DNA from: Hevea brasiliensis
Lineage: Eukaryota > Streptophyta > Magnoliopsida > Malpighiales > Euphorbiaceae
Assembly (NCBI RefSeq): GCF_030052815.1
Contig: NC_079496.1
Span: 42,123,593 to 42,187,592 of the forward strand
Length of the DNA: 64,000 nt
Direction of reading: 5' to 3'
The notes under the pieces are model-generated. The model was not told the origin of the DNA. It worked only from the letters and a program-made list of their open reading frames with translations, and did no database searches. The position numbers were made by a program, and so were the translations under genes. Shown piece by piece: positions 1 through 56,581 of the stretch. Within the stretch, counting starts at the first letter, position 1; each line of letters opens with the position of its first letter.

Positions 1-504
1 CTCTTTAGGCGGTCACATTTCCGATCTCTCCTCACAAAAATTGAATTAATGCTGAGTCCTCATATTCATTAAGCCTCGCCGATCTCTCAAATCATTTACC
101 GATCTCTTAAACCCGTTGTCGAATTTCCGGACCTGTCAAGTATATTCCTGATCTCTGTTGATAAATAAAATGAACTGGCACTAGATCTTTTCCTACCAGT
201 TTTATTGCCGACCTCCTTTTCGGAAGATTAAGAGCTAAAGTTTGGGTTCGGTTTAACGAGGGTTCCGATCTTAAGTGTTCAAGTTAAATTTTCAATTTTA
301 ACCAAGTCCCGTTCAGCATTTCTCCCCCACCGATCTCATGCTTATTGTGCTTTCCGATCTTTTATACTTAGATTAATAATGGTATTTAGTTCATGTTTCG
401 CTATGCTCATACAATCAAATACTTAGGCAAATTCGAAGATTTTCCAATCACATCCATTCATTGAACAAAAGAGATATTCCATTTCATTTCATAATTTGTA
501 CAAG

Positions 505-2380
505 TTATTCGGCTGGGGGATCACCCCCAGCCTGATTTACATTCTGCTCACTCTCTCTCTCTTCCTCGCCCTCCTCCTCACTATCTTCACCATCGCCCCC
601 GGGAGCCAGGTCGTCCATCCAAGAAAAGTCCTCTTCAGGATAGCGCTTTTGAAGTTCGGCCAAGAGATCCTTATGAGCATTCACATAGGCTCCGGCTATT
701 CCCGACACCATCTCTTCATCCTTTTCCTTGAGCTCTTTTTCTTTCTCCGAAAGCTCCTTATCCTTCGCGTTAAGCTCCTCTACAAGTTGAGCGACCTGAG
801 CGGCTTCGTTGGCCTGAAGTGCCCGGATTTCTCTGAGAGCCCGTTCACTTTCAGCCAAGTCACGAGACCTTTCGGCCAGCTGGTCTTCATGGTACTTCGC
901 CCGTCCCTCGACTTGAGATATATAATCCCGAGCGGATGAGAGTTGGGATCGGAGGGAAGTCAATTCCTGATTTTTCTTCCCAACCTCCTTACCTGCAGCC
1001 GAATCTTTTCTCGAATCATGGTCCGGTTCACGACACTCCACGCTTAGGCTCATGGTTCGAGTCAAGATATCATCGAGACCATTCAGGATAGCTGTCCGAT
1101 CCTCTTGAAAGAAGATGGTAGATCCCGGGACTTTGGTAAAATCGGGGTTCTCCTAACGATCGGTTATTCTTCAAGCGATCGGTCAAGATTCGGCGCCACG
1201 AGAAGAGGTCCTCCTGAGAAGATTGAGAAGGCTCCCTTCCGTGCTTGGAATAAGCGAGATAGGCGGGCCGCTCTTCCGATCTAGGAGGAGATCTGACAGC
1301 CTCAATGGTCGGCGGACCCGAAGGTTGAGACGGGTCTCTTTGCATCTCCCCAGGTTCGTGACCGGGTGTTTGAAGACGTTCCGAACGCTTCATCTCCTTT
1401 ACTTTCCGGAAGATCTCTTTGTCCTTCTTCCGCTTCCTAGAACCCTCACCACCCGCCATACCTGCACAAAGAAAAGGTTAGTGAGATCGCTAAGGTCCCG
1501 AACTGAGATATAGAAAATACCAATGCCGAGGTCGAGAGCGGAAGTTCGCGATCTCGGCGGTGATCGATTGCATGGTCCAATGGTGCGATTCGGCGATCAC
1601 CGCATTTGGACAGAATATTTTAGAGTGGTGGCACGACTTTTCTGCTCCTTCAATATCTAGATTTCCTCTTGACTCAGGGTAAAGTGCTTCGGAAGCAGGG
1701 GCCCCTGGTACCACAAGCTACTAGGAAATTCCTCAAAGCAGATCGGAACTTTACTCCTCGAATGAAGAACCTGGTTCTTCCAATTCTTAAGGGATGAGGG
1801 CAGATCGGAAAAGAGTCCGAACGAGGCTTCGCTGAAAGAACCGGTGTTCGTCTTCCTTTCGTGAGTTAGTGCATGCAGCTCGGCGAACACCTTAGCCGTA
1901 GGTCCGATTCCCTTAGCTCGGCATAGACCTCGGAAAGCTACCAAGATCCGCCACGAGTTAGGATGGATTTGAACAATGGATATTCGGTGAAATTTTAAGA
2001 CCTCCTTATAGAAATCGGCTAGAGGAACCTCGGATCGGCCTTTAATCGTTCTTCGTACACCATGACCATGTCATCCTCTTCAAAAGAATGATCGACACGA
2101 AGATCGCCATGGCACTTGATCACTCATATGAATCGGGACAAATATTGTATTCTTGAACAAGCGATTGCAGATCGGATTCCCAAGAACCGATGGAAGCTCG
2201 TCATAGGAAGGGTCTCTCTCCTTGAAGGTGGTGCAAGCCTTGATGGTATGACCCGACCGACTGGAGCAGACCCTAGGGGTTTAGGTTGCACTGGGCCCGA
2301 TCGCCTCTTCTTCATCATACGATGACCATGAGAACCGAATGGAAGGAGGGCTCGCGCTCTCGACCTTCTGCACCGCTCAT
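505..2380 (-). pseudogene. Antisense LTR gene: Transposase_28-like protein with C-terminal coiled coil (left copy)
   Basis: Read on the minus strand, a start ATG (2378-2380) lies about 150 nt downstream of a TATA box. Several frames joined by small shifts then encode one recognisable protein. A block around 2150-1640 contains 'NSWRILVAFRGLCRAK' and 'KNWKN' followed by 'GPLLPKHFTLSQEE', which resembles the 'putative gypsy-type transposon' family (Transposase_28, Pfam PF04195). A basic segment follows at 1459-1070 (MAGGEGSRKRKKDKE...). The last 186 codons (1065-505) are a strong heptad-rich coiled coil ending in an acidic E/D-rich tail and a TAA. Known: extra ORFs of this kind, often antisense, occur in plant Tat elements; their function is unknown. 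At least four frame changes make this copy broken as read, though some may be sequence errors. A possible short intron (about 1462-1520, GT...AG on the minus strand) precedes MAGGEGS. Confidence 0.72.
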
Positions 2381-2532
2381 TTTCAAGAAAAACAAAGAAC
2401 TTAAACTAAAAAGAGGATTAAAGCCCTTAGGAGTCCGATCGGCGTCGGGAACCGAGAAAATGAGAGAACTTGAAGTTGTGAGCAGGGGATTGAAAATGGA
2501 ATGAGAGAGCAACCGGCTAACCCTCCCACCCC

Positions 2533-2540
2533 TATTTATA
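2533..2540 (-). promoter_or_regulatory. TATA box (TATAAATA) of antisense LTR gene, left copy
   Basis: The minus strand reads TATAAATAGGGG about 155 nt upstream of the ATG at 2380. A near-palindrome GCATTTAATGC (2550-2560) sits just upstream of it. The same pair recurs before the second antisense ORF. Confidence 0.6.
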
Positions 2541-2814
2541 CTAGTCCGAGCATTTAATGCTCGCGAGGTTCTAGGCGCATCGATTGGTGGGACTCGACAA
2601 TGTTCGACACTTTTCTCAAATATCCGAATGTTCGAGATCGGTTTATTAGAGGTCGGCATAATAAGTTAAAAATTTTTGAATAAAGGATCACTAAGTGTCA
2701 TTCACGTAAAGAATCAGATTGGATAATCACATTAGGGATCGGAAAATAATCAATGCAAAAATAATAAGATGATAACCGACAAAATAAAGTCTTTATTTTC
2801 AAAAGTTCGGATTA

Positions 2815-3035
2815 CATCATTTGGGCGATCTCTAGGGATCGGATTACACTAACATTGGATCACATCATTTCTGTGATCTCTAGAGATCGGATTGCATTGA
2901 AAATAAAATACATCATTTGGGCGATCTCTAGCGATCGGACTACAATAAAGGTCTAACTACAACATTTGGGCAATCTCTAGAGATCTGATTACATTTCAGG
3001 ATTACATCATTTGGGCGATCTCTAGAGACCGGTGG
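2815..3035. repeat. 'catttgggcgatctctag' short repeats in Tat LTR, left
   Basis: About five spaced, imperfect copies of a unit built on catcatttgggcgatctctag followed by gatcgg and an attaca-type spacer. The cluster separates the two antisense ORFs. The counterpart in the right LTR is at about 15000-15230. Confidence 0.7.
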
Positions 3036-3083
3036 AACATCCTATCTAAAAGGCCTATGTCAAAGCCTAGTCTTGTGGCTGAA

Positions 3084-3386
3084 TCAAAAGATGTGTTTGA
3101 CCAGTAGACCATTTGTTGGCATCGGATAGATATGCAGCTCAGATGGGGTGATTATGACTCCCATGAAGATGAGAGACATCGTCACCGATGTTACCACTCG
3201 AAACCGACCCGCTGTCGGAACACCCAATGCGATGAGAAGCCGAATGAACTCAGTAGAGCGACTCGAGATCGGTACAACCAAAGTCCGCAATACAGATCGG
3301 TCAAATCCAGTTCTCTCACCATCGTAAGTTAAGGTCATGCGATCACCGGGATCATAAATTTTCAGTCGGTAAGTAAAGAAGTTCAT
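3084..3386 (-). CDS. Hypothetical 100-aa antisense ORF in Tat LTR (left copy)
   Basis: The ORF starts at an ATG (3386) about 118 nt downstream of a minus-strand TATATATA. The predicted protein ([17 protein letters not shown]...) has no domain I recognise; a hydrophobic stretch near residues 75-90 is not convincing as a membrane segment. The same ORF is kept over its full length in the other LTR with almost no change, in an LTR that elsewhere carries many indels. That and the TATA spacing are the only coding evidence. It could equally be a chance ORF in a conserved regulatory region. Confidence 0.3.
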   Translation of the reverse strand: MNFFTYRLKIYDPGDRMTLTYDGERTGFDRSVLRTLVVPISSRSTEFIRLLIALGVPTAGRFRVVTSVTMSLIFMGVIITPSELHIYPMPTNGLLVKHIF

Positions 3387-3503
3387 CGGAAAAAGATCAA
3401 AGCCACAGTTATAGCCAGAACTTCCACCGGAGCAGCTAGAACAGGGAAAGTAAGAAAAGAAGAGAGGAAAGTCAGATGAAGAAAATGTCTCCGTCGACAG
3501 GGG

Positions 3504-3511
3504 TATATATA
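3504..3511 (-). promoter_or_regulatory. TATA box (TATATATA) before second antisense ORF, left
   Basis: TATATATA on the minus strand with GCATTTAATGC (3523-3533) just upstream, the same arrangement as at 2533-2560. This suggests a duplicated minus-strand promoter module. Confidence 0.45.
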
Positions 3512-4109
3512 GGGGGAAATGGGCATTTAATGCTGAGCGGAAAACGAAGCGGACGCTTCGAGAATCGAGATGTAATTAATGCTTGGACCGAACCTGCATC
3601 GATCAAGGGATAAAAGAGATCGGAGATAGGAGATCGGCATGAGAGATCGGAATAGGAGCTAGGGGAGGATCGGAAGACAAAAAGAATAAGACAAATTCCA
3701 ATAACCGTCGTCGAATCGTGAGCGAGGTAGTTAAAGCGTGGCGACGAGATCTCCACCGCACGCCTAAGAATCGCCCGCACTTAATCTTGAGTGCCGTGGT
3801 ATGTCATGATACCTGTACATCCCAATCTCCACCGTTGATCTCACTTGTAAGGATGAATCCGGAACCCTTGGATCAAAAGAGAAGACGACAATACCAGCGT
3901 TTTTCACTCTTAGCCCTCAGATCGTTCCGGACAAGAGGATTCAAGACCGTCAGATTAAAAGAGGAAAAGGACAAATATTCCGAGAAGCGATCTCAGCCAT
4001 TCGTTTTGATTCTCTTTAATTCCTGAACATCCGATCATGTACTTCAAAATCTTGACCCTCCATCTTCCTCAAAATAAATCCTGACCCTTCATGGGGAGCA
4101 CCCGATTCC

Positions 4110-4117
4110 TATAAATA
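4110..4117 (+). promoter_or_regulatory. Plus-strand LTR TATA box, left
   Basis: TATAAATACC in an otherwise ordinary stretch, identical in both LTRs. This is the likely core promoter for the element's genomic RNA, which would start about 30 nt downstream (about 4145) and give a long R/U5 of up to 1.9 kb. It lies head-to-head with the antisense promoters 0.6 and 1.6 kb upstream. Confidence 0.6.
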
Positions 4118-5169
4118 CCTGCATGAAAAACTGTTCAAGGACGGACGAAAAAATAGACAAGAGGTTGTTATTATAGTAGAGGAACTCTGAAAGTTCATTT
4201 AGTTTGTTACTCTGCTATTTAGAAGAATCGATCAAAAAGACTTTTGAAACTAGTTTTCTGAAGTGTTTTCTTGAAAAGATTCTGAATACTGGAACTCTAC
4301 ATTTCCAGCTTGTTCATTATCTGGTCATACTCTCACTTTCTGCCTTTTATTATCTCTGCTTTCGCTGTCCAAGCTCAATATCATTCGTTTCTTTTGATCT
4401 GATTGCATTTTAACTAAGTACTCTCCAGTTCACGAAGAACACCGCTCTCAGGCTAATCGGTCCACTGTCTTATCCCTGTTTGCCACCCCATAACTATTTT
4501 AGCAGATCCGGTTCCTCACAGGTAAGAGTCCATATTGCTGTTTACGTTATTTTCCACACTTTCTTTGTTCTTTATACATCCGTAACTTTCTTCAAGGTTA
4601 TTTTGTACAAGAGAACCCAAGAGAAATGTTATTGTAAGAGTTCATGCTACTGCTTTATTAAGTATCTACATTTATTTTCCGCATTTTCCTTGTTCTTCTT
4701 ACGTCTACAATTTTCTTCAAGATCACTTCTGCATAAGCAATCCCCAAAGAAAGTCACTCTCAAATCATCTTTTAGTGATCAGTTCATTTTATTGATCTCC
4801 GTCATTTCGAAAGCAAGTTTTCTAACTCCTAGTAATATGTAAATGGTTGGGTAAACGAGGTAATCGCAACTTAGGGTCTCTTTTAAAAGAGAGAACGTGA
4901 ACAACACGTCGGAAGATAGCCAAACTATTAGGCCGACGTGACAATTCGACAAAGATGTCATAAAGTGGAATAAGACCAAAGTAAACGAAACAGAGTAGAT
5001 CGGTCATTAATAGATATTGGTAAAATGAACGCAGGGAAGGTCGGTAAATCAAGTCTAGTTTTCCCTATCTAGTCAAAAGGTATCGAGAAGCCTTATCCTC
5101 AAAGATCTTAGAACGCCGTAATCCTTAGCTTTAGGTTCTTATGTCATGTAGTTGAAATTAAAAATCTGG

Positions 5170-5646
5170 AGATCGGAGAAATCCCTTCCGTGCTCTGTTG
5201 TCTGAAAGAGATCGGAAGAGAGTTCTTGTCGATCTCAATCCAAAATTTTAATAAACGTAAAAAGAGATCGGAGGAGATTTCTTATCCGGTCTCCCATCAA
5301 AATTTTAATAAACATAAAATAGGGATCTGAGGAGAGTTCTTATACGGTCTAATCTCAAAACATTAATACATAACTCAAAAGGAGATCTGAGGAGGGTTCT
5401 TATCCGGTCTCCCCTCAAAATTTTAATAAATAACTTAAAAGAGATCGGAGGAGGGTTCTTATCCGGTCTCCCCCCAAAATTTTAATAAATAACTCTAAAG
5501 GAGATCGGAGGAGGGTTCTTATCCGGTCTCCCCCCAAAATTTTAATAAATAACTCTAAAGGAGATCGGAGGAGGGTTCTTATCCGGTCTCCCCTCAAAAT
5601 TTTAATAAACAACTTAAAAGAGATCGGAGGAGGGTTCTTATCCGAT
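5170..5646 (+). repeat. 60-bp tandem array in Tat LTR, left (about 8 units)
   Basis: Units of about 60 bp built on gagatcggaggagggttctt, atccggtctcccctcaaaa and ttttaataaataactc. Nearly every unit contains AATAAA. The central units are almost identical and the outer units diverged, a pattern expected from unequal exchange or slippage. It lies about 1 kb downstream of the plus-strand TATA box. Confidence 0.9.
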
Positions 5647-6015
5647 TCTCACACCCGTTCACTAAGGTTGTCTCATTTACTTATGTATCTGGGTGATCCA
5701 AATTTAGTGAAAAATCAAATATTCCTTCTACCAAAAGGATTAACATTGCCGTCTAAGCCTCCCTAACTAATTTATAAAGGACGCAGAATTAAATCTACTT
5801 ACCCTTATTAAGGGACGAGGTGGGGTGCCTAACACCTTCCCCACCCGTTTACGGACCCCGGACTTAGAATCACTGTTTTGAAGTGGTTTCATTTTTAATT
5901 TAACTTCTCAAATGGTTTTCTTTAGTTTCCCTCAAAACTAAGGTGGCGACTCCTCACTCTTTCCCACTTCGGTGAGCGATCGTCCAGGCGACCGCAAAAT
6001 CCCATTGCGACAGCT

Positions 6016-6033
6016 TGGCGACTCCACTGGGGA
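6016..6033 (+). other. Primer-binding site, tRNA-Arg type
   Basis: TGGCGACTCCACTGGGGA begins three bases after the 5' LTR. It is complementary to a tRNA 3' end of the form ...AGTGGAGTCGCCA, which matches the tRNA-Arg primer type reported for plant Tat/Ogre elements. Confidence 0.85.
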
Positions 6034-7331
6034 TGTGTCTCAAGTCTAGTGGTCCAAAAGTAGATTTAATTTTGTCCGATCAAATTTTGCCCGATCAAAT
6101 TATAGTTAGATAGGCTCATTCGGCGATGTTGTATGCGTTAATTATTATTGCTACTAACTATTTTGTTTGTTTTACTGCCCTATCCTCACAAAGGTGCTCT
6201 TCGTTTCAAAAAAGGGGAAAAATGAAAAAATAAAATCCCCCGAATTGGGAAGAGGTAAAGGTGTCCCTTCACACACTGAACACTTACACAATGTCCTCAC
6301 ACACTATGGTCCTAACCCGGACTTTCTTACCCTTTTAGGAAAGTAGGAGGGGGTCATATAGCGGTACCCGTGGGTTTTACCCCGTTAGTATCCGTGAAGG
6401 CTTCTGCTCAAATTGAAACTCGTTCTATTTACCGTGATATCCGTGGAATTTTCCCGAAAATATCATGGGGATAGAATGGGGCTCTACTGTTTACAGTAGG
6501 GGCAATTTGGGAACCTGTGGCTATTAGAAAATTAGATCCTGAGCTTAACTATCACGATAGCTGAAAGCCGTAGTAAGCTACCTTATAAGATAGAACTATC
6601 CCAAATAGGTAGCGCTTATCCGGTATCAGGAGTCTCCCTATTATAGGACAAAAAGGGACATGTTTACTCTTACCTTGTTCATTTTATAAGGGTAATCTTG
6701 AATACTACTGAAACACCTACACATTTTCCTACTTTGATAAATGTGTATGTGTCACCTTGTCAACAGTATGATTCAAAATTACCCCAATTTATCTTGCTAA
6801 CGAATTTTTCCCACAGGCATCACCAAAATAAGGTCTGTAAAAGGATAAGCATCATTTTTAACATGGCATCCTCGAGTCAGTCGGCAGAGGAAGTTTTTTA
6901 GACCAGAACAGAATGCTAAACCATTGTTGAACCTATGAGGCGGTTCGGGCCATGGTTTAGCAAAATTGTGAATGAATAGTATGACTCCCGTAGGAACCCC
7001 CTCGCTAGGGTTATGCAAAAAAATTGAATGCGCCATATGGACAAGTACCATAAATGCGCATTCAATCCAGTCATTCACTGTCGGACTATCGAACGATGCC
7101 ATGATAAAAGTGATGCAATTATCCCTCTGCAGATTTCGTCTTGGCTCTCAGATGCCATCGTATCCTTTGTCCACACCAGGACCCTTTTAATTTTTAATTC
7201 AAAATTCATTGAAAATTTTCCTTTTTACCCCCCACAGAAAATCAAACATTACTTCAAACAACGCAAGTCTGACCAAGCACACGGTTCAACCCCAGCGAGT
7301 GTACTTAACAAGATCTCGAACAAGAAAACTA
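6034..7331 (+). other. Tat element leader (non-coding)
   Basis: A 1.3-kb untranslated leader between PBS and gag. It contains no ORF with recognisable similarity. Short reading frames here, including one at 6698-6901, have no family features. Confidence 0.6.
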
Positions 7332-8370
7332 ATGGAAGACCAGGAACAAGTACAGAACCTACAGGGGCAAGTGTCAGAACTAAAAGACCAGGTTTCAGAA
7401 CTTATGAAGATGATGAGGGAGATGTCCCAAAATAGGCCCACTTCTGACCTTAACCTACCATTACCTCCCCCACCTCCTACAACGGTTGATTCTCACTACG
7501 CTTCAACCTCCTTCACTTTCCAGCCATCAATCCGGACCGGCCATCAAGTAATCCGGTGACCATAAATAATGACCTACCTTTTTCCTATTACCCGGCTATC
7601 TCAAATGCCGAGCCTCACCCTTCAATCCCGATCCCTCAAGCTTACTCCACCCCTCATTTCCCAGTTGGGGGAGCACCTCACACAACAGGAGGAGAAAGTA
7701 AGATGAGAGAAAATGAGAAGCTGTCCGCTCTGGAAGAGAGATTGAGAGCTATAGAGGGCCTGAATATGTATGGCTCAGTTGACGTGGCATCACTAAGATT
7801 GGTTCCCGATGTGGTGGTGCCGCCCAAATTCAAGGTCCCCGATTTTGACAAGTATACTGGGAATTCGGACCCTCGAATTCATTTGGCCACCTATATTGCC
7901 AAGATGTCCTCTATGACAGATGATGACAGACTGTTAATCCACTTCTTTCACAAGAGCCTCTCTGGAGCAGCTCTGAGGTGGTGTGTTCAATTAGACAGGA
8001 GCAGCATCAAGGCTCCTGGAAGGATTTAGCCGAGGCCTTTTTAAAGCAGTACAAATTTAACTGCGATGTGGCCCCCACAAGAAGGGACCTCCAGAACCTG
8101 GTACAGAGAGACAGGGAAGGCTTCAAAGAATATGCCCAAAGATGGAGAGAGAAAGCAGCGGAAATATACCCTCCAGTTATTGACAATGAGCTTTGCTCTC
8201 TCTTCATTGAGACCTTGAAAGCTCCTTATTTCTATTTGATGATCGGGAACACCTCCAACAACTTTGCTAACATTATACAGACTGGGGAGAGAATTGAGGC
8301 AAATTTGAGACTAGGGGAGGTTACAGGAAGTGGTAAGAGAAAATTCAGTGAAAAGTACGATAAATTCTGA
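7332..8370 (+). pseudogene. gag: Tat-type gag, frameshifted
   Basis: The ATG at 7332 opens a heptad-rich coiled coil (MEDQEQVQNLQGQVSELKD). A frame change near 7540 leads to a proline-rich linker and a second helix (ALEERLRAIEG). The conserved retrotransposon-gag core follows: VPPKFKVPDFDKYTG, DPRIHL, then GAALRW near 7970. A second frame change near 8015 continues the core (AEAFLKQYKFN, APTRRDLQNL, RWREKAAE) to a TGA at 8370. Gag would form the cytoplasmic virus-like particle. Two frameshifts break this copy. The domain order is normal for Tat gag up to this stop, and the zinc-knuckle-like part follows in a separate fragment. Confidence 0.88.
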
Positions 8371-8573
8371 GAAGAAAATGGAAGGGGAGGTGCACAATGT
8401 GATGTAACAAGCCTATCAACCATGCCCCCCCACAAAACACCTACCGTTCTCGATTTTCTTCCCAAAACCTAATGGTAGCCAATTTTCCACCAAAATTTCT
8501 TCTTATCCCAACCACAATAGGTCCCATAACCAATTGCTTACACTTCACGTCACGACTCAAACAAATTAGTTCA

Positions 8574-9022
8574 TCTAAATCACCCACTTCCCAATCCCGA
8601 CCCACCACCGCCTATGCCCTTGCGAGATTTATTGTTACCTTTTGAGCATAAACCAGATAGTCCCCATACCACTCGACCTTTTACAATCCCTATATCCAAT
8701 GAGGTGTGATCCAAATGCTCATTGTGAATACTATCGGGGGGGGGGGGCAATTGGTCACTCAACATACAATTGTGGAGCTTTCAAAGGTAAGGTACAGTCC
8801 CTTATCAGAAATGGGTGGTTGGAGATGGAAAGTGAAAGTGCAATTCCTAATGTTGAAATTAATCCATTGCCTAACCACGAAACTGGTAAAAGAGGCAATG
8901 TGCACATAATAGAATGCATAGGAGATGCGTTGGAACCAGAAATGCTGATTGTGCCAATAAAAAGAAATCAAGAGCTTGATACTTGGGGGGCAAAGGATAT
9001 CCTTATACTTTTCTCTGAGTAA
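8574..9022 (+). pseudogene. Tat gag C-terminal fragment with zinc-knuckle-like motif
   Basis: A segment in changing frames reads MPLRDLLLPFEHKP, then DPNAHCEYYRGGGAIGHST with YNC, then KVQSLIRNGWL. This is the Cys/His motif and following helix found at the C-terminus of Tat-lineage Gag. A run of 12 G (8736-8747) lies inside the motif and adds or hides residues. Downstream residues to the stop at 9022 are weakly protease-proximal and not assignable. Little coding sequence is recognisable between here and 9340. Confidence 0.7.
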
Positions 9023-9339
9023 TGAATATTTGGTTACCTACACTTGACCACTTTGTCCATGGTGTTAAGTGGATTGTGAATGGACCTTCTCTCATGATTA
9101 AGTATTAGTAAGTTAATCGCGCATTTTTCCAACCAATATATAATGATTCAATCAACTATGATATTCATGAAGTTAACTTTGAAGGACCAATAATTGCCCT
9201 GAATACTAGTGATTCTGATGAAGGGAAACTATGCCACGCAAGCTAACGAACACGATGGCTAAGAAAAACTGTATCGAGTATGTTTGAAAATGTCACAAGT
9301 CTTTGTACATATGTTGGTCGGAAAACGCCCCATGATCGA

Positions 9340-9650
9340 TTGCAATGCGGGCATCGATGTCATCGGAAGCCTCCGGTGATTCATCTTAATTCATCACCTT
9401 ATCGCCCCAAATGAACAACGCCATGGAAATCAGAAACAAGAATCTCAAATGAATGATCGAAAAGATGATTGATTAAAGCAACTCCATATTCGTTAGTATA
9501 TGGCATGGAAGCAGTTTTGCCAATAAAGATGGAAATTCCTTCTCTGTGAATCTTAATGGAGAACAGAGCTAGATGAAATCGAATAGGTCAAAACAAGATT
9601 CGAAATCTACCATGGACGGTTATACCAAAGAAGACAGGCCGTGGTGCTTG
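9340..9650 (+). pseudogene. Integrase relics (Tat pol remnant)
   Basis: Two short matches to Tat integrase remain: GIDVIG at 9349-9366 (start of the catalytic core) and TPYSLVYGMEAVLPIKMEIP at about 9481-9540 (end of the core and C-terminal domain). They lie about 115 bp apart, whereas a full core needs several hundred, and stops and frame changes separate them. Protease, RT and RNase H are absent upstream. These relics show that the element derives from an autonomous ancestor by large internal deletions. Confidence 0.75.
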
Positions 9651-10430
9651 AATAAGAATGAACAATCTCTGAGCTCCAACCAAGAGATCTTATATCGAAG
9701 GAAAATACTACAAAATGTGGGACTTGAAAAAAAAAAAAAAAAAAAAAAAAGGTTAAAATTTTTAAGGGCGCTCCTAGTAAAATGAGGGAAAGAGGGTGAA
9801 AACCCGAGAGGGCGCCTTCTGCAAAATGAGTGAAGGATGAAAACTCGAGAGAGCATCCTGAAAAAGTGAGTTATCGGGATTGAAAACCTCAAAGGATGCG
9901 CCTAGCAACATGAAGCCTTATTGAGAATGTAAAACGGAGTCAAAAGGTAGCAAGGGACCATGGCACAAGGATTCTTCTCAGACTATTAGTATTTGGGGCA
10001 ATAAAGGGTCTAGAAAAGTTAATAAAGGAATTCGTGAGATTTCTCTTTCTTCCAAATTCATATCCTTATTCTTTGTTATTAAAAACCATATTTTTCTCAT
10101 ATTCCATCAGCCCATTTACCTTGGAACATGCGCTGTTAACTTGTTAATGCTTTATTATGAGTTAAGAATTTAAACACAGGTAACTTTATATACATTGCAT
10201 TGAATGACTAAGCAGTGAACACACAACCTATTGATATGGGAGTTGGGACTTGAACAAAAAAGAAGAAGAAGAAGAAGAAGAAGAAGAAGAAGAAGAAGAA
10301 GAAAATGTAGGAATGAAAACCCGAAAGGGCGCTCCTAGTAAAATGTGTGAAAGAGGGTGAAAACCCGAGAGGGCGCTACGCAAAAATGAGTGAAGGATGA
10401 AACCCAAAGGGCATCACAAAAGTGAGTTAT

Positions 10431-10469
<39 letters not shown>

Positions 10470-11104
10470 CTTGGGGTGAAAACCCAAAAAGGGCGTCCCA
10501 AGAACCAAACTGGAGGAATAAGGAAGGGGGCATGAAACCGCGGATAGAGAGGCAACCGTCATGGCATGGGACTTCAGAGAACTTGGAATATGGCAGTTAA
10601 AAGACTTCAAAACCAACTAAAAGGAATATATGAAATCTATCCTTGTACCTTTCCTTTTCCTTTGAAAGTCTATTTTTCCTAAAGCCATGATAAAGTTATA
10701 CTCCACTCCTTCACTGTTGTTTTCCGCTTACTCACTTTTTAATACTATCCTTTCTCTTGGACTAATGCGCTATTGATTAGTTAAATTTCGCCATAAGATT
10801 TGAATTTAAAAATTGATAACCTCAATGCATTTTACTATGAGATTTGCAGGAATAGCCTAAAAAAAAAAAAAAAAAAAAATAGTGTTGAAAACCGAAAGGG
10901 CGCTTCAGTCGAATGGACGAAAGAAAGTGAAAACCCACAAGGGCGCTTTCAAGAATAAGGAGAAAATCAGAACGGAAAAGGGACATCCGAAAGAACGGAG
11001 TCGAGGTCGTGCCTTACAACTCCTCCTCCATTAATCGTCCGCCTTCATTATCTTGTTAAGTACACTTTGTCAGGGAATAACTTCATGTGCCAAAGTCAGA
11101 CTTG
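9651..11104 (+). other. Tat 3' untranslated region with 'gaaaacccgagagggcgc' blocks and simple repeats
   Basis: No coding sequence. Repeated short blocks of the form gtgaaaacccgagagggcgc occur at about 9795, 10357, 10478 and 10925, a hallmark of the 3' region of many plant Tat/Ogre elements. Pure A-runs occur at 9727-9750, 10432-10465 and 10859-10879, and an (AAG)n microsatellite at 10256-10304. Lysine-rich reading frames across these runs are artefacts. Confidence 0.75.
10256..10304 (+). repeat. (AAG)n microsatellite
   Basis: Uninterrupted run of about 15 AAG triplets in the Tat 3' region. Confidence 0.95.
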
Positions 11105-11995
11105 TTTTGTAAGTTGATTTTAATTTCCTGCAATTCCACCATCAACCTCTGGTTCCTTGATCTAAGTTGATTTTAATTTCATGCAATTTACATTTCATGC
11201 TATCAACCTCTGGTTCCTTGATCTAAGTTGATTTTAATTTTCTGCAATTTACATTTCATGCTATCAACCTCTGGTTCCTTGATCTAAGTTGATTTTAATT
11301 TCCTGCAATTCCACCATCAACCTCTGGTTCCTTGATCTAAGTTGATTTTAATTTCATGCAATTTACATTTCCTGCTATCAACCTCTGGTTCCTTGATCTA
11401 AGTTGATTTTAATTTCCTGCAATTCCACCATCAACCTCTGGTTCCTTGATCTAAGTTGATTTTAATTTTCTGCAATTTACATTTCATGCTATCAACCTCT
11501 GGTTCCTTGATCTAAGTTGATTTTAATTTCATGCAATTTACATTTCCTGCTATCAACCTCTGGTTCCTTGATCTAAGTTGATTTTAATTTCCTGCAATTC
11601 CACCATCAACCTCTGGTTCCTTGATCTAAGTTGATTTTAATTTCATGCAATTTCATTCCTGCTATCAACCTCTGGTTCCTTGATCTAAGTTGATTTTAAT
11701 TTCATGCAATTTACATTTCATGCTATCAACCTCTGGTTCCTTGATCTAAGTTGATTTTAATTTTCTGCAATTTACATTTCATGCTATCAACCTCTGGTTC
11801 CTTGATCTAAGTTGATTTTAATTTCCTGCAATTCCACCATCAACCTCTGGTTCCTTGATCTAAGTTGATTTTAATTTCATGCAATTTTAATTCCTGTTAT
11901 CAACCTCTGGTTCCTTGATCTAAGTTGATTTTAATTTCATGCAATTTTAATTCCTGTTATCAACCTCTGGTTTCTAGATCCAAGTTGATTTTAAT
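11105..11995 (+). repeat. Tandem array of alternating 61- and 53-bp units (about 15 copies)
   Basis: Every unit contains aagttgattttaattt and caacctctggttccttgat. Long units (61 bp) carry tttacatttcatgctat in the middle and short units (53 bp) carry a shorter ccacca linker; a third variant of about 58 bp appears near the 3' end. Long and short forms are interspersed, indicating that blocks of two or three units were amplified together. Known: tandem arrays just upstream of the 3' LTR are common in Ogre/Tat elements and can seed satellites. Confidence 0.95.
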
Positions 11996-12119
11996 GTTCG
12001 AGGTCATTAACTTAGATGTGCTTTAGTTCCCTAATTTCGAACACCTAATCGTCCAAAATATGAGTCTGAATCTTTACATAATTCCTATACAGAAATTTTT
12101 CCTTTAATAGAAATTATGT

Positions 12120-12132
12120 AAAGAGGGGCAGC
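12120..12132 (+). other. Polypurine tract of Tat element
   Basis: AAAGAGGGGCAGC directly abuts the 3' LTR start TGTCGACACC, matching the plus-strand primer form usual in the Tat clade. Confidence 0.85.
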
Positions 12133-12706
12133 TGTCGACACCATATTTTGGCCGATCCCTAGAATCAATAAAAATTCTTCTTTGAACAGCTAATCTCATT
12201 TCCGATCCCTCTTTAGGCGGTCACATTTCCGATCTCTCCTCACAAAAATTGAATTAATGCTGAGTCCTCATATTCATTAAGCCTCGCCGATCTCTCAAAT
12301 CATTTACCGATCTCTCAAACCCGTTGTCGAATTTCTGGACCCGTCGAGTATATTCCTGATCTCTGTTGATAAACGAAATGAACTGGCACTAGATCTTTTC
12401 TTACCAGTTTTACTGCCGACCTCTCTTTTGAAAATTTAAGAGCTAAAGTTTTGGTTCAATGAAATAAGGATTCCGATCTTAAGTGTTCGAGTTAAATTTT
12501 CACTCAAATCCCGTTCAGCATTTCTTCCCTACCGATCTCATGATTAGTGTGCTTTCCGATCTTTTATACTTAGATTAATAATGGCATTTAGTTCATGTTT
12601 CGCTATGCTCATACAATCAAATACTTAGGCAAATTCGAAGATTTTCCAATCACATCCATTCATTGAACAAAAGAGATATTCCATTTCATTTCATAATTTG
12701 TACAAG

Positions 12707-14577
12707 TTATTCGGCTGGGGGATCACCCCCAGCCTGATTTACATTCTGCTCACTCTGTCTCTCTTCCTCGCCCTCCCCCTCACTATCTTCACCATCGCCC
12801 CCGGGAGCCAGGTCGTCCATCCAAGAGAAGTCCTCTTCAGATAGCGCTTTTGAAGTTCGGCCAAGAGATCCTTATGAGCATTCACATAGGCTCCGGCTAT
12901 TCCCGACACCATCTCTTCATCCTTTTCCTTGAGCTCTTTTTCTTTCTCCGAAAGCTCCTTATCCTTCGCGTTAAGCTCCTCTACAAGTTGAGCGACCTGA
13001 GCTGCCGTTGGCTGAAGTGCGGATTTCTCACGAGAGCCCGTTCACTTTCAGCCAAGTCACGAGACCTTTCGGCCAGCTGGTCTTCATGGTACTTCGCCCG
13101 TCCCTCGACTTGAGATATATAATCCCGAGCGGATGAGAGTTGGGATCGGAGGGAAGTCAATTCCTGATTTTTCTTCCCAACCTCCTTACCCAGACGCTGA
13201 ATCTTTTCCCGAATCATGGTCTGGTTCACCAGACACTCCACGTTTAGGCTCATGGTTCGAGTCAAGATATCATCGAGAACATACTGGGATATACTGTCCC
13301 TATCCTCTTGAAAGAAGATGGTATATCCAATGACTTTGTCAAAATCGGGTTTCTCCCTAACATCGGTTATTCTTCAAGCGATGGTCAAGATTCGAGCGCC
13401 ACGAGAAGAGGTCCTCCCAGAAGATTGAGAAGGCTCCCTTTCCGTGCTTGGAATAACTGAGATAGGCGGGGGCTGCTCTTCCGATCTAGGAGGAGATCTG
13501 ACAGCCTCAATGGTCGGCGGACCCGAAGGTTGAGACGGGTCTCTTTGCATCTCCCCAGGTTCGTGACCGGGTGTTTGAAGACGTTCCGAACGCTTCATCT
13601 CCTTTACTTTCCAGAAGATCTCTTTGTCCTTCTTCCGCTTCCTAGAACCTCACCACCCGCCATACCGCACAAAGAAAAGGTTAGTGAGATCGCTAAGGTC
13701 CCGAGAACCGAGATATAGAAAATACCAATGCCGAGGTCGAGAGCGGAAGTTCGCGATCTCGGCGGTGATCGATGCATGGTCCAATGGTGCGCGGCGCCAC
13801 CGCATTTGGACAGAATATTTTAGAGTGGTGGCCGACTTTTCACTCCATCACTATCAAGCTTTCCTCTTGACTCAGTGGTAAAGTGCTTGAGCGAGGGCCT
13901 CGGTACCACCACTACGAGGAAAGTCCTCAAAGCGGCTCGGATCTTTACTCCTCGTAATGAAGAACCTGGTTCTTCCAATTCTTAAGGGATGAGGCAGATC
14001 GGAAAAGAGTCCGCAACGAGGCTTCGCTGAAAGAACCAAAGGTTCGTCTTCCTTTCGGCGAGTTAGTGCAGGCATTTCGGCGAACACCTTAGCCGTAGGT
14101 CCGATTCCCTTAGCTCGGCATAGACCTCGGAAAGCTACCAAGATCCGCCACGAGTTAGGATGGATTTGAACAATGGATATTCGTGAAATTTTAGGACCTC
14201 CTTATAGAAATCGGCAGAGGGAACCTCGGATCGCCTTTAATCGTTTCTTCAGACACCATGACCATGTCATCCTCTTCAAAAGAATGATCGACACGAAGAT
14301 CGCCATGGCACTTGATCACTCATATGAATCAGACAAATATTGTATTCTTGAACAAGCGATTGCGCATCGGATTCCCAAGAACCGATGGAAGCTCGCTATA
14401 GGAATGGTCTCTCTCCTTGAAGGTGGTGCAAGCCTTGATGGTATGACCCGACTCCGAGCGAGAGACCCTAGGGGTTTAGGTTGCACGCTGGGCCCGATCG
14501 CCTCTTCTTCATCGACGATGACCATGAGAACTGAATGGAAGGAGGGCTCGCCGCTCTCCGACCTTCTGACCGCTCAT
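12707..14577 (-). pseudogene. Antisense LTR gene: Transposase_28-like protein with coiled coil (right copy)
   Basis: This is the same gene in the 3' LTR. The start ATG is at 14575-14577, behind a minus-strand TATA box at 14729-14736, and the TAA is at 12707-12709. The same block (about 14140-13850, 'VAFRGLCRAKGIGPTAKVF'), basic region and coiled coil can be read, again spread over several frames. Its indels differ from those of the left copy: the first 70 codons are more open here, while the coiled coil is broken near 13020. Conservation of the protein across both LTRs despite different lesions supports a once-functional coding gene. A transcript from this copy would run from the 3' LTR back toward the internal 3' repeats. 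Confidence 0.72.
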
Positions 14578-14728
14578 TTTCAAGAAAAACAAAGAACTTA
14601 AACTAAAAAGAGGATTAAAGCCCTTACCGAGTCCGATCGTCGGAGAAATTGGAGAAAATGAGAGAACTTGAAGTTGTGAGCAGGGATTGAAAATGGAATG
14701 AGAGAGCAACCGCTAACCCTCCCACCCC

Positions 14729-14736
14729 TATTTATA
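14729..14736 (-). promoter_or_regulatory. TATA box of antisense LTR gene, right copy
   Basis: Identical TATAAATAGGGG on the minus strand, about 150 nt upstream of the ATG at 14577, with the same upstream GCATTTAATGC element. It is unchanged between the LTRs although the nearby coding region has indels. Confidence 0.6.
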
Positions 14737-14999
14737 CTAGTCCGAGCATTTAATGCTCGCGAGGTTCTAGGCAACATCGATTGGTGGGACTCGGCACTGT
14801 TCGACACTTTTCTCAAATATCCGAATGTTCGAGATCGGTTTATTAGAGGTCGGCATAATAAGTTAAAAATTTTTGAATAAAGGATCACTAAGTGTCATTC
14901 GTAAAGAATCGATTGGATAATCACATTAGGGATCGGAAAATAATCAATGCAAAAATAATAAGATGATAACCGACAAAATAAAGTCTTTATTTTCAAAAG

Positions 15000-15230
15000 T
15001 TCGGATTACATCATTTGGGCGATCTCTAGGGATCGGATTACACTAACATTGGATCACATCATTTCTGTGATCTCTAGAGATCGGATTGCATTGAAAATAA
15101 AATACATCATTTGGGCGATCTCTAGCGATCGGACTACAATAAAGGTCTAACTACAACATTTGGGCAATCTCTAGAGATCCGATTACATTTCGTGATTACA
15201 TCATTTGGGCGATCTCTAGAGACCGTGGAA
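15000..15230. repeat. 'catttgggcgatctctag' short repeats in Tat LTR, right
   Basis: Right-LTR copy of the repeat cluster, with the same number and order of units as at 2815-3035. Confidence 0.7.
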
Positions 15231-15276
15231 CATCCTATCTAAAAGGCCTATGTCAAAGCCTAGTCTTGTGGCTGAA

Positions 15277-15579
15277 TCAAAAGATGTGTTTGACCAGGAG
15301 ACCGGCTGTTGGCATCGGATAGATATGCAGCTCAGATGGGGTGATTATGACTCCCATGAAGATGAGAGACATCGTCACCGATGTTACCACTCGAAACCGA
15401 CCCGCTGTCGGAACACCCAATGCGATGAGAAGCCGAATGAACTCAGTAGAGCGACTCGAGATCGGTACAACCAAAGTCCGCAATACAGATCGGTCAAATC
15501 CAGTTCTCTCACCATCGTAAGTTAAGGTCATGCGATCACCGGGATCATAAATTTTCAGTCGGTAAGTAAAGAAGTTCAT
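15277..15579 (-). CDS. Hypothetical 100-aa antisense ORF in Tat LTR (right copy)
   Basis: The counterpart of the left ORF with the same ATG and stop, differing at about one residue (N to A near the C-terminus). The frame is also open upstream of this ATG as far as 15825, but that extension crosses the TATA box at 15690-15697, so the MNFFTY start is preferred. No known domain is recognised. Confidence 0.3.
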
Positions 15580-15689
15580 CGGAAAAAGATCAAAGCCACG
15601 ATTATAGCGTAACTTCCACCGAGCAGCTAGAACAGGAAAGTAAGAAAAGAAGAGAGGAAAGTCGATGAAGAAAATGTCTCCGCGATGGG

Positions 15690-15697
15690 TATATATA
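15690..15697 (-). promoter_or_regulatory. TATA box before second antisense ORF, right
   Basis: Right-LTR copy of the minus-strand TATATATA plus upstream GCATTTAATGC. The sequence between it and the ATG differs from the left copy mainly by small indels at CAG/CCGG-type sites. Confidence 0.45.
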
Positions 15698-16293
15698 GGG
15701 TGAAATGGGCATTTAATGCTTAGCGGAAAACTATTGGGACGCTTCGAGAATTGAGATGTAATTAATGCTTGGACCGAACCTGCATCGATCAAGGGATAAA
15801 AGAGATCGGAGATAGGAGATCGCATGAGAGATCGGAATAGGAGCTAGGGAGGGATCGGAAGACAAAAGAATAAGACAAATTCCAATAACCGCCGCCGTAA
15901 TCGAGCCGAGGTAGTTAAAGCGTGGCGCGAGATCTCCACCGCACGCCTAAGAATCGCCCGCAATGCTGACAGGTGCCAGGGTATGTCATGACAGTCCTGT
16001 ACATCCCAATCTCCACCGTTGATCTCACTTGTAAGGATGAATCCGGAACCCTTGGATCAAAAGAGAAGACGATAATACCAGCGTTTTTCACTCTTAGCCC
16101 TCAGATCGTTCCGGACAAGAGGATTCAAGACCGTCAGATTAAAAGAGGAAAAGGACAAATATTCCGAGAAGCGATCTCAGCCATTCGTTTTGATTCTCTT
16201 TAATTCCTGAACATCCGATCATGTACTTCAAAATCTTGACCCTCCATCTTCCTCAAAATAAATCCTGACCCTTCATAGGGAGCACCCGATTCC

Positions 16294-16301
16294 TATAAAT
16301 A
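16294..16301 (+). promoter_or_regulatory. Plus-strand LTR TATA box, right
   Basis: Copy of the 4110 TATA box in the 3' LTR. Here it would drive readthrough transcription into the flanking copia sequence. Confidence 0.55.
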
Positions 16302-17349
16302 CCTGCATGAAAAACTGTTCAAGGACGGACGAAAAAATAGACAAGAGGTTGTTATTATAGTAGAGGAACTCTGAAAGTTCATTTAGTTTGTTACTCTGCT
16401 ATTTAGAAGTATCGATCAAAAAGACTTTTGAAACTAGTTTTCTGAAGTGTTTTCTTGAAAAGATTCTGAATACTGAAACTCTACATTTCCAGCTTGTTCA
16501 TTATCTGGTCATACTCTCACTTTCTGCCTTTTATTATCTCTGCTACTTGCCCAAGCTCAATATCATTCGTTTCTTTTGATCTGATTGCATTTTAACTAAG
16601 TACTCTCCAGTTCACGAAGAACACCGCTCTCAGGCTAATCGGTCCACTGTCTTATCCCTGTTTGCCACCCCATAACTATTTTAGCAGATCCGGTTCCTCA
16701 CAGGTAAGAGTCCATATTGCTGTTTACGTTATTTTCCACACTTTCTTTGTTCTTTATACATCCGTAACTTTCTTCAAGGTTATTTTGTACAAGAGAACCC
16801 AAGAGAAATGTTATTGTAAGAGTTCATGCTACTGCTTTATTAAGTATCTACATTTATTTTCCGCATTTTCCTTGTTATTCTTACGTCTACTATTTTATTC
16901 AAGATCACTTCGCATAAGCAATCCCCAAAGAAAGTCACTCTCAAATCATCTTTTAGTGATCGGTTCATTTTATTGATCTCCGTCATTTCAAAGCAAGTTT
17001 TCTAACTCCTAGTAATATGTAAATGGTTGGGTAAACGTAGGTAATCGCAACTTAGGGTCTCTTTAAAAGAGAGAACGTGAACAACACGTCAGGAAGATAG
17101 CCAAACTATTAGGCCGACGTAAACAGCAATTCGACAAAGATGTCATAAAGTGGAATAAGACCAAAGTAAACGAAACAGAGTAGATCGATCATTAATAGAT
17201 ATTGATAAAATGAACGCAGGGAAGGTCGGTAAATCAAGTCTAGTTTTCCTATCTAGTCAAAAGGTATCGAGAAGCCTTATCCCCAAAGATCTTAGAACGC
17301 CGTAATCCTTAGCTTTAGGTTCTTATGTCATGTAGTTGAAATTAAAAAT

Positions 17350-17826
17350 CCGAGATCGGAGAAATCCCTTCCGTGCTCTGTTAACTGAAAGAGATCGGAA
17401 GAGAGTTCTTGTCCAGTCTCAATCCAAAATTTTAATAAACGTAAAAAGAGATCGGAGGAGAGTTCTTATCCGGTCTCCCTTCAAAATTTTAATAAACATT
17501 AAATAGGGATCGGAGGAGAGTTCTTATCCGGTCTCAACTCAAAACATTAATAAATAACTCTAAAGGAGATCGGAGGAGGGTTCTTATCCGTCTCCTCAAA
17601 ATTTTAATAAATAACTTAAAAGATATCTGAGGAGGGTTCTTATCCGGTCTCCCCCCAAAATTTTAATAAATAACTCTAAAGGAGATCGGAGGAGGGTTCT
17701 TATCCTGTCTCCCCCCCAAAATTTTAATAAATAACTCTAAAGGAGATCGGAGGAGGGTTCTTATCCGGTCTCCCCTCAAAATTTTAATAAACAACTTAAA
17801 AGAGATCGGAGGAGGGTTCTTATCCG
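17350..17826 (+). repeat. 60-bp tandem array in Tat LTR, right (about 8 units)
   Basis: Counterpart of the left array with the same unit count and the same AATAAA in most units. Small differences lie in the C/G-rich part of the unit. Confidence 0.9.
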
Positions 17827-18192
17827 ATTCTCACACCCGTTCACTAAGGTTGTCTCATTTACTTATGTATCTGGGTGATCCAAATTTAGTGAAAAATCAA
17901 ATATTCCTTCTACCAAAAGGATTAACATTGCCGTCTAAGCCTCCCTAACTAATTTATAAAGGACGCAGAATTAAATCTACTTACCCTTATTAAGGGACGA
18001 GGTGGGGTGCCTAACACCTTCCCCACCCGTTCTGGACCCGAACTTAGAATCTCTGTTTTGAAGTGGTTTCATTTTTAATTTAACTTCTCAAATGGTTTTC
18101 TTTAGTTTCCCTCAAAACTAAGGTGGCGACTCCTCACTCTTTCCCACTTCGGTGAGCGATCGTCCAGGCGACCGCAAAATCCCATTGCGACA

Positions 18193-20835
18193 TGAATGAT
18201 GGTCTTTATTGTTTGGATAATAATGACAAACACAAAATGAATGCAAGTGATCTAGATGAATGCAATGCCATGGTGAAAATCAACTCAAGTTCAAAATATA
18301 TTTGGCACTTAAGGTTAGGTCTTGTTGTAGAAGATAGGATTACAAAATTAGAGAAAATGGGGATTTTATCTTCATTGGGCTTTGAGCCTGCTCCAACTTG
18401 TGAATCTTGCCTTCAGGGCAAAATGACTAGATCACCCTTTATGGGACAAGGGCTAAGAGCTGAAAATATTTTGGAGCTAATACATAGTGATGTATGTGGT
18501 CCATTTAAATAAATGGCTAGAGGCGGTTTTCATTATTTTATTACCTTTACTGATGATACGTCAATGTTTGGGTATTTGTATTTAATGAAATACAAACATG
18601 AATCCTTTGAAAAGTTCAAAGAATTTAAATCTAAAGTAGAAAATCAAATAGGAAAAAGCATTAAAGCTCTTCGATCAGATCATGGAGGTGAATACTTGAG
18701 TACTGAATTTGATGAATACTTGAGAGAGCATGGCATTGTTTCCCAGTTGACTCCTCCAGGAATACCACAACTGAATGGTGTATCTGAAAGGAGAAATGGT
18801 ACCCTATTGGATATGGTACGTAGTATGATGAGCTATACTGATATGCCAATCCCCTTTTGGGGATTTGCATTAAAATAAGCTTTGTATATTCTGAATAGGA
18901 TTCCATCAAAATCAGTTTCTTCCACTCCTTATGAGATATGGCATGAAAGAAAACCAAGTCTTAAGCATGTTAAGATTTGGGATTGTCTAGCTTATATCAA
19001 AAAGCTGAACACTGATAAATTGGAAACCAGATCAGAAAAGGGTCGATTTGTTGGATATCCAAAAGATAGTTTTGGATGTTATTTTTATTTGCCTACATCA
19101 CAAAAGGTTGTGATAAGTAGAGATGCCATATTTCTTGAACAACAGTTTGTTCAAGAAGGAGGCAAAGGAAGGCAAATAGAGTTAGAATTGGAGAATTCTG
19201 ACCAACCAACAGATCAGATGGATATAGATCCATCTAGTCAACCTACACCTATTGATGAAACATCTATAGCTGTTCCTCATAGAACAACTAGGGTATCTCA
19301 CCCACCAGTGAGATATGGTTTCCTTCATGAAAAAGAACAAGAGTTGTCTACTCATAAAGAAGTTGATCATGGAGATGATCCACTTACCTATGAAGAAGCT
19401 ATATCAGATATAGACTCTTCAAAATGGATTGATGCTATGAAATCTGAGATTGATTCCATGTATAAGAATCAAGTTTGGGACCTTGTTGACCCACCCGAAG
19501 GTATTGTACCTATAGGAAACAAATGGATTTTCAAGAAGAAAATTGGTTCAGATGGAAAGGTAGAGGCCTATAAGGCAAGGCTAGTAGCGAAAGGGTTTCG
19601 CCAAAGGCAAGGAATCGACTATGAGGAGATTTTCTCGCATGTTGCCATGCTTAAATCAATTAGGATTCTATTAAAAATGGCTGCATACTATGATTATGAG
19701 ATTTGACAGATGGTTGTCAAAATAGCTTTTCTCAATGGATACATTGAAGAAAACATTTTCATAGAACAACCTAGGGGTTTTAAATCCCAAAATGGTTCTA
19801 AAGTGCGCAAGCTAAAGCGATCCATTTATGGGTTGAAACAAGCTTCGAGGAGTTGGAACATCCGTTTTGATAAGGCTATTAAGTCATTTAGTTTTATCAA
19901 AAATGAGGATGAACCATGTGTATATAAAAAGGTTAGTGATAGTGCCATCACTTTTTTTGTCTTATATGTGGATAATATTTTGTTGATAAGTAATGACACA
20001 GGTATGTTGACAACTATAAAGGTATGGTTGTCAAATACATTCTCCATGAAAGGCTTAGGGGAGGTAACCCATATTCTTGGAATTCGCATCTATAGAGATA
20101 GAGCGAAAAGAATAATTGGTTTATCCCAAAATCTATACTTGGAAAAGGTGTTAAAGAGTTTTAACATGCTTAATTCTAAGAGAGGATTGTTACCAGTGAG
20201 ACATGGTATCCACCTTTCTAAAGAGATGTCTCCAAAGACACCTGAAGAAAGAGATAAACTATTGGAAGTTTGATGTATGCAATGTTGTGTACTAGGTCGG
20301 ATATCGCATATGCTGTCAGTTTGACTAGTAGGTATCAATCCAATCCAGGTTTAGAACACTGGATAGTTGTCAAGAATATCCATAACTACTTGAGCAGAAC
20401 TAACGATTTATTCTTGATATATAGAGGTGGTGACTTGCAATTGAATGGTTATACTGATTCTGATTTCCAATCAGATATCAATGATAGAAAGTCTACATCT
20501 AGGTTTGTGTTCATTTGTAATGGAGGTGCAGTCAGTTGGAAGAGTTCCAAATAGAGTACAACTGCAAATTCCACTGCCGAGGCTGAGTATATTACTGCAT
20601 CAGATGCTGCAAAGGAGGCTATTTGGATATAAGGAACCCTAGTCTCACTAGAAATCCAAACACATAGAAAGGCGCTGCCACATTATTAGAGAGATAGTTG
20701 GGCAAGGCGATATAGCCATGTAGAAAATGGCATCAGCTGAAAATCCAGCTGATTCATTCTCTAAGCCTTTGTCACAAGTACAGTTAGATCGACATCTTGA
20801 GAAGATGGGTCTAAGGTATTGTAATGAATGGCTCT
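18193..20835 (+). pseudogene. pol: Copia pol: GAG-pre-integrase, integrase, RT, RNase H (five or more stops)
   Basis: Domains in order: GAG-pre-integrase with HLRLG and the zinc-binding Cys pair CESCLQGK (to about 18440); integrase core with FITFTDD, SDHGGEY and ERRNGT (18520-18870); copia RT from NKWIFKKK (about 19520) through KARLVAKGF and YGLKQASRSW; RNase H with DSDFQSD and STAEAEY (20450-20600). Premature stops are at about 18510, 18876, 19704, 20271 and 20552; two look like simple transitions (TGG to TGA before QMVVK, CAG to TAG after SWKSSK). The RT catalytic YVDD reads YVDN at about 19965, removing one metal-binding aspartate. The copy is long dead. Confidence 0.93.
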
Positions 20836-53900: not shown

Positions 53901-53979
53901 AGAGGTAGAAAATGCAAACTGAGGCAGTTGGACCATCACAGAGGCTTGCATCGAGCCGATGAGAGGCCGGATAACGGAC

Positions 53980-56506: not shown

Positions 56507-56581
56507 GTAAACAATTGAAACCAATGAAATTGATACAAATATTGAATTAAAATGATAACAATAACGTGAAATATATGTCAG
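56507..56581 (+). other. Candidate 75-nt intron in gypsy-2 integrase
   Basis: AT-rich segment starting GTAAAC and ending TGTCAG, inserted between codons for ...SERVIQ and VLKDML... (phase 0). These two peptides are contiguous in gypsy-1 (ERVI-type sequence near 45295 runs straight on). Unspliced, it adds an in-frame TGA after three codons; removing it restores continuity. A plausible branch-point region (tgataac) lies about 30 nt before the 3' end. Splicing is inferred only. Confidence 0.6.

Follow-up and report, generated by a model that had tools for sequence, protein, structure and literature searches.

Can an antisense accessory gene of a plant retrotransposon reside inside the LTRs of the element and be present twice in each copy? 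The question is raised by the first 18.2 kb of a 64,000-nucleotide stretch of the Hevea brasiliensis genome (contig NC_079496.1; hereafter the window), which contain an LTR element with two LTRs of approximately 6.06 kb each. A preliminary description of the window had placed an antisense protein gene with its own TATA box and a Transposase_28-like block inside both LTRs. A well-known characteristic of Retand elements is an antisense TRP28 gene, which has been described at a site between pol and the 3' LTR; what is unusual here is the position inside the LTR. The antisense unit is real, right in kind, and unusual in place, and it is a putative gene only.

The direct repeats at positions 1–6012 and 12209–18192 of the window have a sequence identity of 95.3% and belong to the LTRs of one LTR element in the first 18.2 kb of the window. 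The window starts inside the 5' LTR and therefore lacks the 5' flank with the target-site duplication. The 3' LTR is opened by TGTCGACACC at position 12133 and closed by GCGACA at position 18192. The end of the 5' LTR, GCGACA at position 6012, is followed by GCT and then by TGGCGACTCCACTGGGGA. The element thus has the TG..CA ends of an LTR retrotransposon (with the TG start seen in the 3' LTR only), and a PPT and a PBS-like sequence at the inner edges of the LTRs. The backbone of the element is composed of the following features:

1–6012, plus strand: 5' LTR, the first approximately 76 bp of which lie before the window; ends with GCGACA.
6016–6033, plus strand: PBS-like sequence TGGCGACTCCACTGGGGA, a putative PBS.
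7332–8370, plus strand: frame-broken gag with Hevea brasiliensis relatives (PF03732, E 5.4e-8, 33.4 bits on 7927–8370).
12121–12132, plus strand: PPT, purine-rich AAGAGGGGCAGC, directly 5' of the 3' LTR.
12133–18192, plus strand: 3' LTR of 6060 bp, TGTCGAC...GCGACA, delimited by repeat comparison and sequence.

The only Pfam family in the six frames of the internal region (6013–12132) is Retrotrans_gag (PF03732). Protease, RT, RNase H, integrase, and TRP28 were not detected there by Pfam in a scan that read stops as X and accepted E up to 0.05 or 0.01, in which frame breaks could hide weak domains. A gag without protease, RT, RNase H, and integrase in the Pfam scan characterizes a non-autonomous Ty3/gypsy element. 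This agrees with the preliminary description, which regarded the element as having lost its RT; the RT is absent from the scan, and its loss is presumed.

Searches with the gag protein identified 73 relatives at E ≤ 0.001 among 335 candidates, and 39 of the 73 are named as Hevea brasiliensis proteins. The best relative, also from Hevea brasiliensis, has 94% identity across 91% of the 136-residue query. Next in order are named legume gag proteins (42–56%), which we take to belong to the Tat lineage. The putative assignment of the element to Tat is based on the gag kinship to these legume proteins and on PF04195 rather than on an RT tree. The JGI protein P0002 is identical (100%) to the window gag over its last 118 amino acids, up to the early end, and 86% identical over the preceding 155 amino acids; therefore, the cut-short gag is probably common to more than one copy. 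A tandem array at 11110–11995, shortly before the PPT, has a 61-nt unit, although periods of 114 and 175 also fit. Downstream of the 3' LTR, a copia-type ORF (18879–19706) contains RVT_2 and SH3_retrovirus domains, and the LTR element may have inserted into a copia element. Another gypsy element, at 53673–57343, has matches to protease, RNase H, integrase C-terminal, and chromodomain families.

The likely sense promoter and the possible end of R bear on the location of the antisense unit within the LTR:

16294–16301, plus strand: likely sense promoter TATA box (TATAAATA) of the 3' LTR, at LTR position 4162, assigned from its position.
17388–17826, plus strand: 60-bp tandem repeat of the 3' LTR, with seven AATAAA motifs inside (17434–17786).

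The antisense unit occupies positions 575–2604 of the 3' LTR. Since the sense TATA box is at LTR position 4162, the unit probably lies wholly in U3, given the presumed limits of U3 and R. The AATAAA motifs of the array at 17388–17826 are perhaps polyadenylation signals, and the 3' end of R is possibly located at this repeat. The 60-bp tandem repeat is also present in the 5' LTR, at 5205–5644. Other plus-strand TATA matches in the 3' LTR are found at 13116 and 15690, and the minus-strand TATA boxes of the 3' LTR include those at 14736 and 15697. Each LTR had been proposed to be a bidirectional transcription unit. TATA boxes are indeed present on both strands, whereas antisense transcription itself is conjectural. 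Because the minus strand of the 3' LTR contains five matches to TATA[AT]A[AT], the antisense TATA box alone is weak evidence of a promoter. A sigma-70 promoter scan produced no match and is uninformative for a plant.

On the minus strand of each LTR, TATAAATA is followed, approximately 160 nt downstream, by an ATG, and then by the Transposase_28/TRP28 block, a basic stretch, a heptad-patterned segment, an acidic tail, and a TAA. The parts of the two copies are:

2533–2540, minus strand: antisense TATAAATA of the 5' LTR copy, beginning at 2540.
2380, minus strand: ATG of the 5' copy.
1657–2070, minus strand: Transposase_28/TRP28 block of the 5' copy, a 137-aa open piece (PF04195, E 1.9e-9, 38.1 bits, cut-off 26.2).
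1462–1520, minus strand: candidate 59-nt intron (GT..AG) separating the TRP28 and basic parts of the 5' copy, proposed by eye.
1070–1477, minus strand: basic, NLS-like stretch and linker of the 5' copy, a 135-aa open piece, from open frames and translation.
505–1152, minus strand: heptad-patterned segment and acidic tail with the TAA end, a 215-aa open piece, from the open frame and a heptad test.
505–507, minus strand: TAA of the 5' copy.
14729–14736, minus strand: antisense TATAAATA of the 3' LTR copy, beginning at 14736.
14577, minus strand: ATG of the 3' copy.
13872–14201, minus strand: Transposase_28 block of the 3' copy, a 109-aa piece (PF04195, E 0.0018, 18.9 bits, below the cut-off).
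12707–12709, minus strand: aligned counterpart, in the 3' copy, of the TAA.
12707–14577, minus strand: antisense unit of the 3' LTR copy from the ATG to the aligned TAA, from sequence and alignment.

The preliminary description was therefore correct in locating the unit on the minus strand of both approximately 6-kb LTRs, each copy with TATAAATA and a downstream ATG. The basic region and the heptad pattern that it mentioned were also recovered. The basic stretch is rich in K and R, and the heptad segment is long and proline-free. The 3.5-residue power of residues 51–160 of the 215-aa piece was reached in 0 of 2000 shuffles; the periodicity is weaker for the second half alone (residues 106–160, 97 of 2000). 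Pfam coiled-coil families match the 215-aa piece weakly, with the best E of 0.0029, below the cut-off. As judged by eye, the candidate intron (1520–1462) would link the TRP28 frame in phase with the frame of the basic part. Stops interrupt the TRP28 frame before the intron in the 5' copy, and the acceptor AG is absent from the 3' copy.

A second antisense ORF of 100 aa is present on the minus strand of both LTRs, at 3084–3386 and 15277–15579, with a difference of one residue and no indel. A palindromic TATATATA is located 118–125 nt upstream of its ATG. The ORF has no Pfam match, and its AlphaFold model (ORF alone) has a mean pLDDT of 37.6, too poor for use.

The antisense unit carries the TRP28 domain (PF04195), with a score above the Pfam cut-off in the 5' copy only. 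The proposed membership in this family thus holds for the 5' copy, whereas the 3' copy falls short of the cut-off, and its match declines to E 0.044 in a read-through of the whole minus frames of the 3' LTR. The three sense frames of the 3' LTR have no Pfam match at E 0.05. Two protein searches with the TRP28 block yielded no relatives (0 of 77 candidates of approximately 348–1106 aa at E 0.001, and 0 of 30 candidates of approximately 147–467 aa at E 0.1); these searches need shared 5-residue words, and diverged relatives can escape them. The database searched holds many Hevea gag proteins, as evidenced by the 39 of 73 gag matches. Viral contigs with TRP28, gag, and coiled-coil pieces, and bacterial and archaeal genome contigs with the coiled-coil piece, were pattern matches but gave no relative by tblastn, and were rejected. 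The structure model of the TRP28 piece, made with two rows, has a mean pLDDT of 37.7, which is too poor for use. No bZIP family was among the matches listed for seven pieces in Pfam at E up to 10, where filters drop most matches above 0.1.

Neither copy of the antisense unit has a continuous reading frame as sequenced. Open pieces with a length of 100 aa or more number four in the 5' copy (116, 137, 135, and 215 aa) and three in the 3' copy (109, 130, and 100 aa). Among dinucleotide shuffles, 6 of 500 reach the longest run of the 5' copy (215 aa), which is thus unusual, whereas 106 of 500 reach the longest run of the 3' copy, which is well within chance. The 3-base periodicity, calculated for the 5' LTR only, is clear in 451–1050 only (4.9 to 9.0) and is absent from the TRP28 part (0.2–1.4), which either speaks against strong recent constraint or is due to the frame breaks. 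The two window copies encode no intact protein as sequenced. Of the antisense protein gene described previously, the TRP28 block, its antisense orientation, and its location in the LTR stand, but the continuous frame does not.

The differences between the two LTRs comprise 247 substitutions (126 transitions and 121 transversions) and 61 indel events in 5952 aligned positions. Neighboring events are at most 3 nt apart in 147 of 307 cases, compared with approximately 44 if placed at random. Four other repeat pairs of the window have the same excess (40 of 76 versus 4.6, 25 of 58 versus 7.4, 9 of 22 versus 1.7, and 81 of 200 versus 49.6, the weakest). The tight patches of differences in all five repeat pairs suggest residual assembly error, and some of the frame breaks may have arisen in the assembly instead of by decay. 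However, some transition excess in the four other pairs (38:21, 34:20, 13:9, and 111:77) argues against assembly error. Part of the clustering can result from the placement of neighboring indels by the aligner, and the patches may originate from gene conversion or clustered mutation. Since the LTR differences partly resemble assembly error, the frame breaks are no proof of decay, and the ORF is likewise unproven. The two LTR copies are unsuited for dN/dS, because LTRs are taken as identical at insertion and their differences partly resemble assembly error.

The most serious alternative to a working gene is a passenger fossil: a TRP28 gene that became enclosed in U3 in the distant past and has decayed ever since, of which at most the promoter functions now. 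We consider this quite possible, although we would bet against it. The broken frames of both copies, the lack of a TRP28 relative in the two protein searches, and the missing 3-base periodicity of the TRP28 part favor it; the first two of these also leave the earlier claim that the protein is kept by the element without support. Speaking against a fossil are the TRP28 domain of the 5' copy, whose Pfam score still exceeds the cut-off, the persistence of the 215-aa open piece, and the resemblance of the difference clusters to assembly error, owing to which some of the breaks may be unreal.

The closest known counterparts of the Hevea unit are the antisense TRP28 ORFs of Retand elements. In PMC11963269, every Retand cluster studied is reported to have antisense coding regions between pol and the 3' LTR; among 122 clusters of recently active elements, 97% carry TRP28 antisense ORFs, for which DNA binding is predicted, and about half of the active elements have tandem arrays. 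PMC6317226 gives Transposase_28 in 23% of its Retand elements. Maize Grande gene23, which is driven by a promoter of its own and whose product is nuclear, rice RIRE2, and Silene Retand are listed in PMC7264820. The Hevea unit resembles these ORFs in the PF04195 domain, reported for Retand ORF4 and the Retand clusters, in its location on the minus strand antisense to the plus-strand gag, in its proximity to the 3' end of the element RNA, and in the nearby tandem repeats; non-autonomous forms are known among the Retand elements as well. It differs from them in lying inside the LTR rather than between pol and the 3' LTR, in occurring twice per element, in its broken frames as sequenced, and in that no pol was found.

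The antisense gene claimed in the HIV-1 LTR (U3-R regions; PMC1654176) and HBZ of HTLV-1, a nuclear regulator (PMC10186651), are likewise antisense genes with minus-strand LTR promoters; these promoters are described there as TATA-less, whereas the Hevea unit has a TATA box, and no sequence relation is expected. HBZ is a bZIP protein, unlike the Hevea unit as far as the matches listed go. Much of the HBZ coding region is located outside the LTR. The sag gene of MMTV is an accessory protein gene inside an LTR; however, it belongs to an animal retrovirus, is on the sense strand, and encodes an unrelated protein. Among the literature matches listed, in the portions of text that they offered, we recognized no TRP28 gene inside a plant LTR and no other case of an ORF in a plant LTR.

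We hypothesize, with somewhat better than even confidence, that the Hevea element is a non-autonomous Tat-type (Ogre/Retand) Ty3/gypsy element with an antisense TRP28 accessory gene inside its LTR, probably in U3, that a shift of the PPT brought the gene there, and that the gene product is a nuclear regulator acting in trans. The start of U3, which is set by the PPT, would have shifted past an antisense gene of the ordinary Retand type. The genomic RNA would have the order R-U5-PBS-gag-repeats-PPT-antisense gene-sense promoter-R. The order described for Retand is similar, except that pol is also present and that the gene precedes the PPT. The emergence of a new PPT upstream of the gene would alone suffice to make an internal gene part of the LTR and to give each element two copies of it. 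The position of the gene close to the 3' end of the genomic RNA would be unchanged, but each round of reverse transcription would copy all sequence from the PPT onward into both LTRs. We infer the PPT shift as the simplest account. A weak scan of the plus strand of the 3' LTR for at least 11 uninterrupted purines, which the PPT of the element itself would fail, found runs at 15642, 16059, 16141, and 17065; none of them precedes a recognizable LTR start, and no fossil PPT was thus recognized in U3.

The minus-strand TATA box may drive a spliced mRNA for a nuclear protein composed of TRP28, the basic stretch, and a dimer-forming helix. This protein might regulate LTR transcription in trans, somewhat like HBZ in HTLV-1; the action in cis or in regulation suggested in the preliminary description is likewise conjectural. 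We favor a nuclear regulator on the grounds of the order of the domains and of the results published for Grande, with a role of the RNA and a fossil as live rivals.

It is also conceivable, but in our view unlikely, that the antisense RNA is the active part. Transcripts from the minus-strand promoters of U3, with TATA boxes at 14736 and 15697, would pair with the element RNA and feed siRNA silencing, and the protein would be irrelevant. Roles of dsRNA are discussed for such antisense transcripts in PMC7264820. However, the transcript would be directed towards the beginning of the LTR and, in the case of the 3' LTR, would continue in the direction of the PPT, and the conserved protein domain speaks for a coding origin. 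Finally, that the direct repeat is a duplicated block without LTRs, containing a Retand fragment by chance, is highly improbable: although the 5' flank and target-site duplication lie outside the window, the repeat has TG...CA ends, is directly preceded by the PPT and directly followed by the PBS-like sequence, and gag lies between its copies.

A regulator gene in U3 remains the reading that we prefer. If the family keeps an intact TRP28 gene in U3, this would help to tell apart two ideas on such genes: a gene that each LTR carries, pol-less elements included, more likely serves LTR transcription or chromatin than the enzymology of transposition. If the PPT account is true, a shift of the LTR start would be an easy route from an internal gene to an LTR gene. 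We speculate, as a long shot, that the family moved an accessory regulator gene into U3 and thereby made every LTR, solo LTRs included, a stand-alone antisense gene. If so, the family could keep supplying the trans-acting protein after LTR recombination removes the full-length copies.
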